Source: Gilliamella apis (lineage in GTDB: Bacteria > Pseudomonadota > Gammaproteobacteria > Enterobacterales > Orbaceae). From it: DNA of 60,314 nucleotides. The position numbers and the translations under genes are program-made. Location of the stretch: the NCBI RefSeq assembly GCF_002142155.1, contig NZ_NASD01000016.1:1-60314 (forward strand), given 5' to 3'. Positions 49,990 through 60,314 of the stretch are shown here, in pieces. The notes under the pieces were generated by a model. That model worked only from the letters and a program-made list of their open reading frames with translations, was not told where the DNA came from and searched no databases. The stretch's first letter is position 1; each line of letters starts with the position of its first letter.

Positions 49990-52900
49990 TTATACAATTC
50001 GTTGTAGTTGAGCATACTTTAATGAACTTACCATAAAATGCAAACGGTTAAGTACATTGACCTCACCTGCACCATCATCAAAATCCAAATAGAGCAGATT
50101 CAGTTTTGGATTAAGATCGCGCATCCGCTTCTCAACCCCTTTAGACACAACATGATTAGCAATACAGCCAAACGGTTGCAAACTAATAACATTATTGATG
50201 CCATGCTCAGCAAAGGTCATAATTCCAGCAGGAATTAACCAACCCTCGCCATATTGATTGGCTAAATTCAAAATTTCCTCTGCTTTTTTCGCCATATCAC
50301 GAATATTATGAAATGGTTGATAATGTTTAAAGCCAGATAAAATCTGATTAGTTTTATCAATATACTTTTGTGCCACCTTTTCAAAAAAGTGCACAAAATA
50401 AGCGACAAAACTCTTGTTAACAATATAATTGTCAACATTACTATCATAGTTAACAAAACATTGCGCAAAAAATTCAATCATTGGCGGAATAACAGGTTCA
50501 ATACCCTGATCGACAAGCCAATCAACACTATGTTGATTACCAAAACTGTTATATTTAACATAAATTTCACCAACAATACCAATTTGTGGGCAATCTTTAT
50601 TCAATGTCTCGATTTGATTAAAATGATCGACCGCCTCTTTCAACAGCGCAAAGATCGCCTTTTTGCCTTTATGTTGATTGATAAGTTGTTGTAATTTTCT
50701 AATATAAAGATCTTTCGCTTGGTTAGCTTGTTGTTTAAATTTGGCTCTAGGCGCAATCGAGTAAAACATCTTCGAAATCGAATCAGTAAATAACATCGCA
50801 AAAAACGTCGTTGGTAAAGTTTTTAGCCAATTAATTCTAAAACCTGGTTGCTCAATTTCATTAATATTACCAGTACTGAGCGACACGATAGGAATATCTT
50901 CAAAACCATTACTAATCATTGCTTTCTTAATCAAAGAAAGATAACTACTCGCTCGACACTGGCCACCCGTTTGAGTAATGCCGATTGCCACTTCATCACG
51001 TTGATATTTACCGGAATTTAGCGCTTTAATAATATCACCAACAATAATGGTTGCTGGATAGCATATCTCGTTATTACAGTATTTAAGTCCCCACTCAACC
51101 GAACTTTTATCTGGTTTTGGCAAGGTTTCAAGTTTATAACCTGACAACTCAAAAATCGGTGGTAATAATGGTGAATAAAAATCGGAGATATAAGGTGCTA
51201 AAATAGTCCTTCTCTGTTTATCTTGTTTAGCAAAAATAGCCGTCTTTTTACGCTCAACAACTTTTAACGGTTGTTGGTGATTCATACGGATTGACTCAAT
51301 AATCGAACGTAAACGCAAACGCACCGAACCAGTTGCGGTGATCTCGTCGACCCGAATTATTGTACATGTCTTACCTTTCGACTCTAAAATCGCCTTACAC
51401 TCATCGGTGACAATCGCATCAGGCCCACAACCAAACGAATTAAGTTGTACAAATTGAATATTTTTTGGTTGTTCAGCAACAAAACTAGCTGCTGCATATA
51501 AGCGATTTGGATAACTCCATTGTGAGCAAATTTGTAGTTCGGGCGATAATTGACTGATCGCCCCTAACACTGAATCTTCGGTTATTACATCGCAACCAAG
51601 CGCATTTAAAATCTCTGGCGTTTTATGATTAATTAAACTATCACTATGATAAGGACGACCTGCCAAAATAAATACATAACGCCCCGTTTGTTTAGCATTA
51701 TTTAGTACTTCAACCGCTTTGTTATACAGCGATTTTTTATATTCAGCTTGAGCCACTAATGCATCAGAAAATGCTTGATTAGCTATCTTTTCTGTAATAC
51801 CAAGCGAAGTTAAATAATTAATACAGCCCTTTTTCAATAATTTTTGATTACTGAAATTGATTACTGGATAATCCAGTGGCACGTCATATTTTTGGCTAGG
51901 ATTGATAGCACTATTCACCACCTCTGCATAGCTACTCACAATTGGACAGTTATAGCTATTAACTGTATTAGTAAACTGATCAGATTCAAACACCACCATC
52001 GGCATAAAAATACGATCAACCTTTTGCTCAATCAGCTCCATAATATGCCCATGAACTAATTTGGCAGGAAAACAGATACTATCCGACATTACTGTACCGG
52101 CGCCCTTTTCATAAATCTCATGCGTCGAGTATGGTGATAACGTTACATTAATACCACTATTGGTTAACAACGTGTGCCAGAATGGAAAATTTTCGTATTG
52201 TCCTAAAACACGAGGAATACCAACATTAAGCTTAGCTTGAGCATTATGGATATTGGTTCGATCAAATAACAACGCATTTTTATAATCAAACATATTAAAT
52301 GCATTTTTATCTTGATATTGATTATTACTCAAAAAGCGTTCACATTTATTACCAGAATAATAGCGCTGCCCATTGGCAAAACGATAAATCATAATATCGC
52401 ATTTATTCTCACACCCCTTACAGCGTGATGGTTTCGCTTTATTATCTTCAGCTTTATGTAAATTATCCAATCCAATAAATTGCGAAGGAGTTTGTTGTTG
52501 TGCATAATTGTTTTTGGCCACTAATGCTGCGCCATAAGCCCCCATCAGTTCAGGAATATTGGAGCTAGCAATCTGTGCGCCAGTTAACTGCTCTAGGGCA
52601 CGAAACACCGCCGGATTTTTAAAAGTTCCGCCTTGCACCACAATATGATCACCTAATTTGCGCATATCATGTAATTTCAGTACTTTATGAATGGCATTTT
52701 TAATCACCGAAAAAGCTAGACCCGCTGAAATATCGCCCATTGTTGCATTTTCACGCAGTGCTTGTTTCACTTTTGAGTTCATAAAAACCGTACAACGGGT
52801 ACCCAAATCACAAGGATTATTGGACTTACACGCTGCATCGGCAAAATCAATCGTATTTGAGTTAAGTGATTTTGCGAAAGTTTCAATAAATGAACCACAG

Positions 52901-54264
52901 CCAGAAGAACATGCTTCGTTTAACTCAATATGATTTACCACGCCATTAGCAATAAAGATGGCTTTCATATCTTGGCCACCAATATCCATGATAAAACTGA
53001 CCTTAGGATCGATATGTTTAGCGGCAGCAAAATGCGCCATTGTTTCGACTAAACCATCATCGATGGCAAAAGCGGCTTTTAGCAGTTCCTCACCATAACC
53101 AGTAACGCCAGTGCGAGCAATAATAATCTCTTTACCTGATGCCGCAATCTCATCTTTTAATACCGTTAAACCTTTAATTAATGCGGTAATTGAGTGGCCA
53201 TTATTCGGTGCATAATAAGTAAAAAGTAGCTCGTCATCCTCACTAATTAAGGTAATTTTAGTGGTAGTTGAACCACTATCAATTCCCAAATACGCTTTCT
53301 GCTTTTGATAAGCAGTTAAAGCTAGACGAGGGATTTGAATATATTTGCGTTTTTGTTGCCAATCATCAAAAGACAAAGCTTGATTAAAGAGCGGTTTTAA
53401 CCTAAAAGACTGATTAACTTGAATCTTGGTTGAGGCATTTAATCTATCAATAAATTCAGTGAGTGTAAGTTGACTACGTTCAATAGCATGAATCGCTGCG
53501 CCCCAAGCGGACAACAAAGTAGGATGCTCGGTGGTAACTATCTGATCTTCATTTAACTTTAGTGTCTCTAACGCGGCCTTGCCTAACGTTGGAATAAACG
53601 AAAACGGTCCACCAATCAACATTACTTTCGGTACAATATCATAACCACGAGCTAACGTATTGACCAATTGAATACAAACGGCATGTAAAACTGAATAGGC
53701 AATATTCTCTTTTGATACATTACGGCTAATTAAATTTTGCACATCAGTCTTAGCAAATACACCACAACGTGAAGCAATCGGATAGACTTTATCATGTTGA
53801 GTTGCCAGCAGATCAAACTCCTGCACTGGGGTATTAAGCAAGGTCGCCATCTGATCGATAAATGCCCCTGTGCCTCCAGCACAACTACCATTCATTCGAA
53901 TATCAGGCGGACGATCAGGAAAAAAGAAGATCATCTTACTATCTTCCCCGCCAATATCGATTAACGTTCTAACCTCTGGATATTTGCGCTGCACCACTTC
54001 CGATGCGGCAACTACCTCTTGAATAAAGGCAATATCAGCTTTTTCCGAAATCCCCATCCCAGCAGAACCAGTCACCTTGACCGATAATACAATCTCTTCA
54101 CCCAATTGCTGTTTAATTTCATCTAATAGCGATAAAACTGTAGAAACAATATGGGTATTATGGCGAACATAATTGGTATAAACAAAATTATCTTGCTCAT
54201 CAAGCACAACACATTTTGCAGTAGTAGAACCAACATCCAATCCAAGTCTATACATTTTTGACAT
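49990..54264 (-). CDS. Giant acyl-CoA-dehydratase-activase-related protein with two BadF/HgdC-type ATPase domains
   Basis: A 1424-residue protein. ATPase domain 1 (about residues 1-270) has GLDVGSTTAKCVVLDEQ, LIDIGGEDSKMIFF, NGSCAGGTGAFIDQMA and ASRCGVFAKTDVQNLI. Domain 2 (about 310-580) repeats the pattern: GIDSGSTTTKITLIS, IMDIGGQDMKAIFI, NEACSSGCGSFIETFA, GTRCTVFMNSKVKQAL. The conserved cysteines would bind the 4Fe-4S cluster. A CKGCENKCD cluster near residue 625 and a long DUF2229-type, 2-hydroxyacyl-CoA-dehydratase-like region with ICFPAKLVHGH, GCGPDAIVTDEC, NNEICYPATIIVG and TQTGGQCRASSY follow. Such proteins are typical of anaerobes. GTG 54276 is an alternative start. The reaction is unknown. 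Confidence 0.88.
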   Translation of the reverse strand: MSKMYRLGLDVGSTTAKCVVLDEQDNFVYTNYVRHNTHIVSTVLSLLDEIKQQLGEEIVLSVKVTGSAGMGISEKADIAFIQEVVAASEVVQRKYPEVRTLIDIGGEDSKMIFFFPDRPPDIRMNGSCAGGTGAFIDQMATLLNTPVQEFDLLATQHDKVYPIASRCGVFAKTDVQNLISRNVSKENIAYSVLHAVCIQLVNTLARGYDIVPKVMLIGGPFSFIPTLGKAALETLKLNEDQIVTTEHPTLLSAWGAAIHAIERSQLTLTEFIDRLNASTKIQVNQSFRLKPLFNQALSFDDWQQKRKYIQIPRLALTAYQKQKAYLGIDSGSTTTKITLISEDDELLFTYYAPNNGHSITALIKGLTVLKDEIAASGKEIIIARTGVTGYGEELLKAAFAIDDGLVETMAHFAAAKHIDPKVSFIMDIGGQDMKAIFIANGVVNHIELNEACSSGCGSFIETFAKSLNSNTIDFADAACKSNNPCDLGTRCTVFMNSKVKQALRENATMGDISAGLAFSVIKNAIHKVLKLHDMRKLGDHIVVQGGTFKNPAVFRALEQLTGAQIASSNIPELMGAYGAALVAKNNYAQQQTPSQFIGLDNLHKAEDNKAKPSRCKGCENKCDIMIYRFANGQRYYSGNKCERFLSNNQYQDKNAFNMFDYKNALLFDRTNIHNAQAKLNVGIPRVLGQYENFPFWHTLLTNSGINVTLSPYSTHEIYEKGAGTVMSDSICFPAKLVHGHIMELIEQKVDRIFMPMVVFESDQFTNTVNSYNCPIVSSYAEVVNSAINPSQKYDVPLDYPVINFSNQKLLKKGCINYLTSLGITEKIANQAFSDALVAQAEYKKSLYNKAVEVLNNAKQTGRYVFILAGRPYHSDSLINHKTPEILNALGCDVITEDSVLGAISQLSPELQICSQWSYPNRLYAAASFVAEQPKNIQFVQLNSFGCGPDAIVTDECKAILESKGKTCTIIRVDEITATGSVRLRLRSIIESIRMNHQQPLKVVERKKTAIFAKQDKQRRTILAPYISDFYSPLLPPIFELSGYKLETLPKPDKSSVEWGLKYCNNEICYPATIIVGDIIKALNSGKYQRDEVAIGITQTGGQCRASSYLSLIKKAMISNGFEDIPIVSLSTGNINEIEQPGFRINWLKTLPTTFFAMLFTDSISKMFYSIAPRAKFKQQANQAKDLYIRKLQQLINQHKGKKAIFALLKEAVDHFNQIETLNKDCPQIGIVGEIYVKYNSFGNQHSVDWLVDQGIEPVIPPMIEFFAQCFVNYDSNVDNYIVNKSFVAYFVHFFEKVAQKYIDKTNQILSGFKHYQPFHNIRDMAKKAEEILNLANQYGEGWLIPAGIMTFAEHGINNVISLQPFGCIANHVVSKGVEKRMRDLNPKLNLLYLDFDDGAGEVNVLNRLHFMVSSLKYAQLQRIV

Positions 54265-54446
54265 AAACAAACTCACATTTGCAAAATTAGACTTAACCTA
54301 TAATAGGGTCACAAATATTACTAAATAACTATATTTTTATTATGGGATTATTATAGCGAAATCTTTCTAATTTTTAATCTATTTGTTTGAAAAATGACAT
54401 TTTTGGATATTTTTTAACTAACAGAAACTAAAGAAAATAAATCTTA

Positions 54447-56700: not shown

Positions 56701-57145
56701 AAAAACCGCCTACACGGCAGTGAACCGTGTTCTGCAATTTGAGGAGTTGTAACTCGATTTCTAAACTACCTACACGGTAGTGAACCTTTTCGGTTATTTA
56801 AGCATTTATGCTCGGCATTTCTAAGCTACCTATACGGTAGTGAACAACGAGTGGTTTTTGTCGGTGGTAGTCATAACTTTCTAAGCTACCTATACGGTAG
56901 TGAACTTTTTGGCAGCAAGCCTCAATTCATCAATTGATTTCTAAGCTACCTATACGGTAGTGAACTATAGTTTTCACCGCTGCCGACCGCTACCACATTT
57001 CTAAGCTACCTATACGGTAGTGAACTCCGATGCATTACCAAGCACATGCTGGCTATGTTTCTAAGCTACCTATACGGTAGTGAACTATTTAATTATTTCG
57101 AAATTACCGCCGAACAGTTTCTAAGCTACCTATACGGTAGTGAAC
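56698..57145 (-). CRISPR. Type I-F CRISPR array, eight repeats and seven 32-nt spacers
   Basis: Repeats of 28 nt recur every 60 nt (starts 56698, 56758, 56818, 56878, 56938, 56998, 57058, 57118). Six are identical. On the minus strand they begin GTTCACTACCGTATAGG and end TAGCTTAGAAA, matching the I-F repeat GTTCACTGCCG...CTAAGAAA with stem CTACC/GGTAG. The repeat at 56758 has two changes and the one at 56698 about nine. This marks the left end as leader-distal and gives transcription on the minus strand. All spacers are 32 nt and distinct. No cas gene exists anywhere in the window, so effector proteins would have to be encoded elsewhere. Confidence 0.96.
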
Positions 57146-58420: not shown

Positions 58421-59803
58421 CTAAGGATAGGCACAGACTACGTAGTAGTCGCGAGTATCCTCAAAGGTAGAAGAAATAGAACCATTGTACGAGTTAACCA
58501 AATAATACCGACTTTTACTAACTGTATTATTCCACTCGGAATCATTCGTCCAAAAGTATAACACTCTGGTGTCGTTGTAGTTGGGGAAATTAGCCCCCCT
58601 GTAATCGCGCATATCCCCCCATTCCGTGAAAAATCCGGCACCAATGTGACGACGAAATTCATTATCAGGTGACGAAGGCGTTGCACTTCGACATTCCTCA
58701 TAAAGATAATGACAACGCCCATTAGTTAAATCCCTGACCTTTGCGACACGATATCCAATCTTATTACAAAAAGATAACATATTAGAAAGGTTATTTTTAT
58801 GATTACCACGATTAATAAACCACTGCTTTAACTCAAATCCATATTTGACCACCGCATTACCACTGCTATCACGACCGACTAACTCAAATACCTGAGGCAA
58901 AGATGGTCTGGCGATTTCACCTGGATTATCTGCCCACCATTGCGAGTAAGTAGCAACAGGACCCGTTAGGGTGACTCGAACGCTGGTACTTGTTGAATCG
59001 GTCATAGTTGCCGTAATACCACCATGAGAAACCGGAGCCCAAGATAAGGCCTGATTAATACCACTAATATTTAAATCAAACCACAACTTATTAGCACCGG
59101 TAGTCGGGAAGTTTAAACCATAAGACGACGGTGTAACTGACTGGGTTAGAAAACCCTTCTCACGGTTCCAAACGGCAGCAGAAATAGCTCCATCCATGTC
59201 TAAGTTAGGTCTTGCAAAACAAATCGCTGGCGATGCCTTAGGATTAATATAATAAGTGGCATTACCTGCACTAAAACGACTTTCATTAGGTACCCCATAA
59301 CGTGTTGTTAATCTACCTTCACCATTAGATAAGGTTAATTTATATGGCGCTTTACAAATTGTCAGTACTTCACTACGGGCAACAGCTCGATTATTTTTAT
59401 CGACAATGGATAAATTTAAACTACCAGTAGCGGTGACACCATTAACTCCCTGACCATCGCCATCATCATCCCCCCAATAATTATACGGTGTGCCAATAAG
59501 TGAACTTAATGCAATAGAATTAGTATCCGTTGGTACTAACATACCAATATCCGCAAAACTCTGACCATCAACAGGTAACTCGATAGGATTGTAATAACTC
59601 GAATTATTGGTTGTGGGAGTAAATTTTCTACCATCAGAAAGGGATATCCTGAGTAGCGCTTCGCTATTTGTTACCCGGGTACGACCACCATCAAAGGTTA
59701 AATAAGGTGCTGAGCCATAAATAATATTGGTCGTTGTAGTGGTTAATGCATAATTAGCAAAAGAGATAGACTGTAAAACAACCACAGTTAATACCAAAAC
59801 CAT
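58421..59803 (-). CDS. Secreted surface protein, likely phase-variable 5' end (present phase out of frame)
   Basis: The body is a 460-residue protein. It begins with a hydrophobic signal core (MVLVLTVVVLQSISFA), then a beta-rich region with YWGDDDGDGQGVNG, and ends in a lectin-like domain (ECRSATPSSPDNEFRRHIG, AGFFTEWGDMRDYRGANF, FWTNDSEWN and a final YYVVCAYP). This end resembles domains I associate with adhesin-like proteins of gut Orbaceae. ATG 59803 has no ribosome binding site. The frame is open for 59 more codons upstream (reading LLFRQFPKFPKFRQ, then NFSKFLGLACLSRP), as in a long signal peptide, but has no start codon. ATG 59991 has a good site but is one base out of phase. One more heptamer copy would give 525 residues. 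Confidence 0.75.
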   Translation of the reverse strand: MVLVLTVVVLQSISFANYALTTTTTNIIYGSAPYLTFDGGRTRVTNSEALLRISLSDGRKFTPTTNNSSYYNPIELPVDGQSFADIGMLVPTDTNSIALSSLIGTPYNYWGDDDGDGQGVNGVTATGSLNLSIVDKNNRAVARSEVLTICKAPYKLTLSNGEGRLTTRYGVPNESRFSAGNATYYINPKASPAICFARPNLDMDGAISAAVWNREKGFLTQSVTPSSYGLNFPTTGANKLWFDLNISGINQALSWAPVSHGGITATMTDSTSTSVRVTLTGPVATYSQWWADNPGEIARPSLPQVFELVGRDSSGNAVVKYGFELKQWFINRGNHKNNLSNMLSFCNKIGYRVAKVRDLTNGRCHYLYEECRSATPSSPDNEFRRHIGAGFFTEWGDMRDYRGANFPNYNDTRVLYFWTNDSEWNNTVSKSRYYLVNSYNGSISSTFEDTRDYYVVCAYP

Positions 59804-59922
59804 CGGCCGAGATAAACAGGCTAAACCAAGAAATTTTGAAAAATTTTGCCGGAATTTCGGAAATTTTGGAAATTGTCGAAATAATAAACTGCGGTGAAAT
59901 AATAAACGGTGTGAGCTTAACT

Positions 59923-59991
59923 TTAGAAAGGTGAATTTATAGGTTGGGCAGGTTGCGTGTTGCGTGTTGCGTGTTGAAAATTATAATCCAT
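59923..59991 (-). CDS. Short out-of-phase frame from the probable true start of the surface protein
   Basis: ATG 59991 is preceded by AAGGA at a spacing of eight bases, the best initiation signal in the region. Reading from it gives MDYNF, then the heptamer-encoded QHATRNT, then QPAQPINSPF and a stop at 59923: 22 residues. The frame meets the surface-protein frame only if the number of 7-bp units changes by +1 or -2. It is therefore read as the OFF-phase start of that gene. Confidence 0.6.
   Translation of the reverse strand: MDYNFQHATRNTQPAQPINSPF
59953..59976 (-). repeat. Heptanucleotide tandem repeat, three full CAACACG units
   Basis: On the minus strand CAACACG is repeated three times (59973-59953), preceded by the partial unit CAA at 59976-59974 in plus-strand terms (TTG). 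Because 7 is not a multiple of 3, each gain or loss shifts the reading frame. It sits inside the 5' coding region between the well-placed ATG at 59991 and the signal peptide of the surface protein. Confidence 0.9.
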
Positions 59992-60314
59992 ATCAGATAT
60001 CCTTGTCAATCCAATTTTATGATTTATTTAAAATTTTAAGCCTAACGGCATAAAATTTATCCATTCGTATAAATATGCTATAAAAGTATAGTGATTGCAA
60101 AAAACCATGCAACTTTTTTTGATGGTTTAATTGTTAACTTTTGTAAAGATGAATACTGCTAGCCCGAAAACAGCATCGGTTATTTGCTGTTTATTAGAAA
60201 TAATATCCCCTTTATCCCCTCTTAAAAAATCACCATTTTTAATATTAATAATTTGCAGATTAGGCTTTTGATTTTGACAATTTTATAATCGTTTTTAGAA
60301 GGTAAAGACAGAAT
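59992..60314. other. Upstream region of the surface gene and right window edge
   Basis: An AT-rich region with possible minus-strand promoter elements upstream of ATG 59991 (for example TATACT and TATAGC between 60071 and 60095). A start-less minus-strand frame ending at 60127 reads in part GDFLRGDKGDIISNKQQITD and AVFGLAVFIFTKVNN. It could be the tail of a lost gene, but no family is recognised and it is not called as a gene. Confidence 0.4.

Follow-up and report, generated by a model that had tools for sequence, protein, structure and literature searches.

A heptamer repeat places an exported adhesin-like protein of Gilliamella apis out of frame in a probable phase-variable gene family

The genus Gilliamella belongs to the core gut symbionts of both honey bees and bumble bees. 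The closest described systems to the Gilliamella locus reported here come from other bacteria. In Neisseria gonorrhoeae, the opa genes carry CTCTT coding repeats that set the frame in the signal-sequence region of many unlinked adhesin loci. The Opa protein is an outer-membrane barrel, and the hmw genes of Haemophilus influenzae are adhesin genes. At hmw1a and hmw2a, heptamer repeats lie upstream, in the promoters, in 13-38 units according to the part of the source that describes them (PMC2651432). In Escherichia coli K1, an AAGACTC heptamer in the 5' coding region sets the frame of neuO, a single prophage gene for a capsule enzyme, with between 3 and 53 units across the genomes of one survey (PMC13001214).

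We asked how a repeat-bearing locus of Gilliamella apis compares with these systems. The window, i.e. the whole stretch of DNA that was analysed, is 60,314 nt long (contig NZ_NASD01000016.1, positions 1 to 60,314, assembly GCF_002142155.1). The locus lies at 58421-60154 on the minus strand and has the following features:

60004..60009, minus strand: TTGACA, perfect -35 box, sharing one base with the Shine-Dalgarno sequence
60000..60004, minus strand: Shine-Dalgarno sequence AAGGA, 8 nt from the ATG
59989..59991, minus strand: probable ATG start codon, 188 nt from codon 59803 and not in frame with the protein
59980..59985, minus strand: TATAAT, perfect -10 box, spacer 18 nt, ending 3 nt before the array
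59980..60154, minus strand: 5' block, 95-97% identity between own copies, similarity beginning sharply near 60154
59952..59976, minus strand: perfect heptamer array, CAACACG x 3.57
59923..59991, minus strand: 22-codon open reading frame from ATG 59991 in the present three-unit state, stop included
58424..59980, minus strand: protein frame, open for 519 codons (array, long signal sequence and mature protein)
59747..59951, minus strand: long signal sequence, its end set by eye from an alignment, not predicted
59234..59746, minus strand: N-terminal conserved domain taken from the structure model (residues about 20-190)
58424..59236, minus strand: Ig-like plus C-type-lectin-like tip, invasin/intimin-like according to the model (residues 190-460)
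58421..59803, minus strand: 460-codon open reading frame that a mechanical annotation would choose, beginning at an ATG (59803) within the signal sequence

The original prediction, made from this DNA, held that three CAACACG units right after ATG 59991 switch a surface protein on and off by frame. AAGGA was indeed present eight bases upstream of the ATG (60004-60000), and on recomputation the distance from the ATG to codon 59803 was again 188 nt (2 mod 3). The three units were also found (3.57 perfect copies, 59976-59952), but the array begins 12 nt past the ATG codon and not right after it. The ATG frame ends after 22 codons in the three-unit state, as had been stated, and the second frame, said to run from the repeat through the signal stretch into the 460-residue protein, was open from 59980 to 58424 (519 codons). 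The joined protein of 525 residues proposed for one added unit is right as arithmetic (65 + 460 codons). Since the protein frame is out of frame with ATG 59991, the sequenced copy would be OFF, in line with the prediction. The sequence CAACACGCAACACG was absent from 100 of 100 shuffles of the window. Elsewhere in the window, a 60-bp unit is present in 2.3 copies (56709-56845) and a 1428-residue protein with BadF/BadG-type ATPase and DUF2229 domains is encoded at 49990-54276.

Searches of Pfam (E 0.1) and NCBIfam found no family in the 460-residue reading frame, the scan starting after the 59 codons that precede it. A full inverse autotransporter was ruled out, with no barrel or LysM found by Pfam (E 0.1) in the same 460-residue reading frame, again downstream of those 59 codons. 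The structure model suggested an Ig-like and C-type-lectin-like tip as in invasin and intimin, and the tip end was the most variable part between copies. Over 11 own copies the 5' block was 95-97% identical; its left edge was sharp and the body a mosaic. In the signal region, the protein frame contained no stops, as compared with 2.4-4.5 per copy in the other two frames (13 of 29 own copies tested). The own OFF copies had pN/pS of 0.62-0.67, i.e. weak constraint; in the signal region, another frame gave lower values (0.47-0.51) than the protein frame (0.63-0.70). The signal-sequence coding region also contains a 9-bp repeat, both in the window (59830-59882) and in the leader at C23:92443 of the own genome (L013, ATTTCGACA x 5.6), which leaves the frame unchanged because its unit is a multiple of three. 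A single 1556-residue open frame with several N-terminal-domain matches was seen in another genome (G011 C1:1005519-1008845).

The closest homologues were found in Gilliamella species and in one Orbaceae strain. By these nearest relatives the host is a Gilliamella and not one of the Pasteurellaceae. A profile of the N-terminal domain gave 465 matches in 30 of the 35 genomes of the genus (fragments of one gene counted separately). For the comparison of unit number and frame we used 203 distinct loci: 30 own, 10 fetched by promoter pattern, 85 from the loci of the homologue search and 78 from the family regions of six genomes (11 of 26 matches in G011, 25 of 27 in G004 and all in G027, G006, G001 and G007), other genomes being represented by 69 closest-homologue loci and chance neighbours in them. 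Heptamer arrays of three units were out of frame in 96 of 97 cases, all 96 by one frame step (2 mod 3), and the sole in-frame three-unit locus (L149:6970) carries a natural 1-nt insertion. Four units were in frame in five of six loci (L118 is scored as four only through flanking bases that extend the array, and L132, with 3.9 units, has the same layout), and two units in none of seven. Arrays of at least seven units (4-, 7- or 8-bp) were in frame in 5 of 19, no different from one third. Because our first start rule favoured in-frame ATGs in array-less copies, we counted these with the ATG picked by motif and Shine-Dalgarno sequence, blind to frame; 22 of 23 were in frame, a count that leaves out 50 of the 73 copies without a counted array as having no ATG of the required motif. 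The difference between array-less (22/23) and three-unit (1/97) copies gives a Fisher p of 8e-22, which is not a true probability because the copies are related. In 19 of the 203 loci no start was assigned by the rule; these include L049 (3 units) and L130 (2.6 units), which were out of frame, and L177, which had no array (looser rule or by eye).

Long arrays were found in several relatives. In G004, 7- and 8-mers in 7 to 26 units directly follow the ATG, and G006 has GCCA arrays of 19-26 units. Long GCCA arrays (15-26 units) lie near the start codon in L170, L172 and L174 (G006) and in L137 and L138, and in L129, outside the 203 loci, about 11 GGGCATC units are in frame with the ATG (by eye). 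In a locus of Gilliamella bombi (L139, near 2880), 8 N stand where the array would be expected, reflecting assembler doubt or masking. Three units were common to 14 heptamer types, while two-unit arrays, equally silent, were rare. Our guess is that three may be the shortest array one step from a reversible ON state (four units), one unit being ON permanently.

In the own genome (G000), a 615-nt piece of the 5' region matched 40 places, some of them fragments. The TTGACA and TATAAT hexamers alone marked 42 sites, and 40 of these were leaders of the adhesin-like family, with a common layout of Shine-Dalgarno sequence, ATG, heptamer array, long signal sequence and invasin/intimin-tip-like protein; as they were picked by perfect hexamers, own copies with altered hexamers fall outside the 40. 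Three units were present in 38 of them, one had no array and one was cut by a contig end. A leader pattern blind to the array (TTGACA, 14-19 nt, TATAAT, 8-38 nt, CTGCC) returned 35 own leaders, every one with a three-unit heptamer array. The heptamers were identical inside an array and different from locus to locus (CAACACA, CAACACG, CAACATC, CAACACC and AAACACC are among them). The frame was readable in 29 own three-unit copies and in seven with more divergent proteins, and in all 36 the protein was shifted out of frame by an identical step; the remaining two of the 38 arrays (C6:64656 and C54:73) end with their contigs. Set against these 36, four own copies had an ATG where one would be expected and were in frame with it. 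C23:149149 has no array and reads for 533 residues from the family's usual ATG, C34:86912 and C16:14402 have neither array nor perfect hexamers, and C1:15800 (L208) carries about 23 GCCA tetramers after the ATG, a long classical repeat tract. A profile search of the own genome gave 38 matches, six without perfect hexamers: the in-frame copies C34:86912, C16:14402 and C1:15800, and three (C15:197, C35:4935 and C23:159220) whose contigs break off upstream. Some twelve contig ends fall within the family 5' block or next to it (on C2, C5, C6, C8, C12, C18, C19, C29, C36 and C54), so that the own copy number is uncertain and pieces on different contigs may be one gene. The family leader and a three-unit array also precede another protein subfamily (LTSLRASTVKVI...) at C28:12961, 14937 and 16935 and C2:79322 (L042, L039); the putative switch would thus be common to at least two protein types. 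With respect to the variation in unit number expected between strains, the evidence was divided: the 38 own heptamer arrays, all of three units, speak against it, while the relatives, with 2, 3, 4 and 7-26 units, speak for it.

Some near-identical genes had different numbers of complete units. L101, with one unit, is in frame and L133, with three, is not, and the two match at 100% over the 1056 nt that follow. Identity was 97.8% over 667 nt between two copies of L175 (three and four units), 97.7% over 1126 nt between two copies of L084 (one and three) and 98.7% over 1120 nt between L047 (two) and L052 (three); all of these are gene pairs, not proven alleles. As such pairs (one versus three, three versus four units) fall in and out of frame, unit number most likely sets the frame, which supports the predicted role of the repeat as a frame switch. 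The arrays also appear to have turned over, given that units are perfect and matching inside arrays but different between loci, in leaders that have diverged. None of the 21 distinct heptamers across loci contained a stop or a start codon in any frame; among random 7-mers of matching composition a fraction of 0.41 would lack both, and the 21 units are related. Shuffles of the units themselves were stop-free in 93%, so this freedom from stops mostly follows from their T-poor make-up.

By sequence match, TTGACA and TATAAT stand within the 16-18 spacing of a sigma-70 promoter. Transcripts from this promoter would be expected to begin within the array, past the ATG, and would therefore lack ATG 59991. 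In the 323 bases upstream of the start, up to the contig end, no other minus-strand promoter scored at least 9 of 12; a weak TATACT (60090-60085) is a candidate upstream box, and this stretch is also present in the array-less L076 and L177 (by eye). The best promoter score (of 12) averaged 11.37 in short-array leaders (n=109, 70 of them scoring 12) versus 9.60 in array-less ones (n=25) and about 7.6 in shuffles, with long-array leaders at 9.95 (n=19). The difference persisted without the own loci and those fetched by promoter pattern (11.03, n=71, versus 9.50, n=24; p 3e-6) and in the closest-homologue loci alone (10.64, n=50, versus 9.44, n=16; p 0.003). In G027, the score reached 11 in 16 of 16 array leaders versus 2 of 8 array-less ones, and all 19 perfect-consensus sites adjoined family matches, as did seven of nine in G006; G012, a genome without family matches, had no perfect-consensus site. 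The reversed pattern, used as a control, gave 2, 5, 3 and 7 sites in G000, G027, G006 and G012, respectively. In G004 the -10 box and the ATG overlap, and the box still stands directly before the array. A perfect sigma-70 consensus binds polymerase tightly and lets it escape slowly. The promoter may either regulate or hinder the full-length message or take part in repeat change. One speculative and rather doubtful idea is that promoter and array form one device, in which bound RNA polymerase would open the first units and drive their gain or loss, or would block read-through from upstream, thereby keeping the repertoire in the three-unit OFF state, a single step away from ON. Such a device would explain the homogenised units at a constant three and the frequent loss of the promoter in array-less copies.

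ATG 59991 is most likely the start codon and 59803 most likely not, because array-less homologues keep the Shine-Dalgarno sequence and ATG in frame, while 59803 has no Shine-Dalgarno sequence and is not conserved (ATT or ATC in some homologues). An annotation that starts at 59803, inside the signal sequence, would hide the switch, as originally argued. Constitutive synthesis from ATG 59803 or another internal start, which would make the repeat irrelevant, could draw on the in-frame internal ATG present in 51 of the 96 out-of-frame three-unit copies, or on the ATG, GTG or TTG present in 84. Under the strict rule that found a Shine-Dalgarno sequence at the upstream ATG in 62 of these 96, however, none of the internal in-frame ATGs had one, and an internal start of any kind had one in only three copies; together with the poor conservation of 59803, this makes an internal start highly improbable. 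Programmed -1 frameshifting, by which the three-unit form would be translated from ATG 59991 after all, would fit the constant step (2 mod 3) of the three-unit arrays (96 of 97), but there is no common slippery site, since neither the bases separating the ATG from the array nor the units are constant (TTTT, TTTA, TGTA, TGGA; by eye), and we find it scarcely credible.

Could the three-unit copies instead be silent donors, not switched in place, that feed in-frame copies by recombination? The nearly identical 5' block with its sharp edge and mosaic body, and the out-of-frame state of all 36 readable own arrays, would agree with this. A mere donor would not need an array kept perfect, however, and genes that are otherwise nearly the same differ by complete units and occur in both states, so we regard this explanation as unlikely. 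The array might also act on transcription, with TTGACA-N17/18-TATAAT starting RNA inside it and unit number tuning mRNA output or stability and not frame. The concentration of perfect-consensus sites in family leaders (40 of 42 in the own genome) and the higher promoter scores beside short arrays point in that direction. Such an RNA would nevertheless carry no protein start with a Shine-Dalgarno sequence (0 of 96 internal in-frame ATGs), and array-less relatives retain this sequence and the ATG in frame; a transcriptional role of this kind is quite improbable.

The observed layout, frames and unit differences between near-identical genes suggest that the gene is probably one member of a large family of exported, adhesin-like proteins that undergoes phase variation through unit number. 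Translation would proceed from ATG 59991 through the heptamer array and reach the signal sequence only at the right unit number. Three units, as in the gene at 58421-59803 and in all 38 own heptamer arrays, would be OFF, and one or four units ON, the state changing as 7-bp units are gained or lost, presumably by slipped-strand mispairing or recombination. The cell would thus keep dozens of silent, mostly intact invasin-tip-like variants, with a lectin-like end differing by copy, and read few of them. Living cells would switch between these states, and the proteins may be located on the surface and attach the cell to the gut of its host or to neighbouring bacteria. Against phase switching speak the constant unit number of the own heptamer arrays, the shortness of three units for fast slippage, the weak constraint on the own OFF copies, with a lower pN/pS in another frame of the signal region, and the promoter, whose single strong match close to the start (12 of 12) would begin RNA past the ATG.

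A search of paper listings, mostly from outside the subscription journals, turned up nothing about phase variation in Gilliamella, and in the literature searched an Opa-like phase-variable family in this genus is undescribed. If our reading is true, a symbiont has dozens of switchable invasin-like proteins, and gut commensals make use of means of antigenic variation that are familiar mostly from pathogens; such a repertoire might help strains to coexist, contribute to host specificity or allow escape from phages. Where a predicted gene begins within the signal sequence, its OFF state goes unnoticed, and surveys would take silent genes for expressed ones.

In mechanism, the family appears to be of the Opa type: the sequences contain paralogous exported-protein loci, a repeat that is not a multiple of three between start and mature protein, and unit differences that change the frame. 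As with opa, the loci are many and unlinked, and the repeat lies in the signal-sequence region. Opa by descent was ruled out, since the 460-residue reading frame has no Pfam or NCBIfam family and its model is Ig-like and lectin-like. Whereas opa uses one pentamer at 9-12 loci and encodes an outer-membrane barrel, here we found locus-specific heptamers in about 40 copies, with three units in nearly all, before an invasin-tip-like protein. In both systems fewer genes are in frame than expected by chance; for opa, the pertinent part of the source gives a mean of 1.7 genes in frame per isolate versus 3.4 expected (PMC13183285). The locus shares with neuO a 5' coding heptamer that would set the frame, but belongs to an adhesin-like family, and it shares heptamer repeats with hmw1a and hmw2a, where they lie in the promoter. 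With intimin and invasin it shares, in the fold of the model and not necessarily in function, a C-terminal Ig-like and C-type-lectin-like tip.
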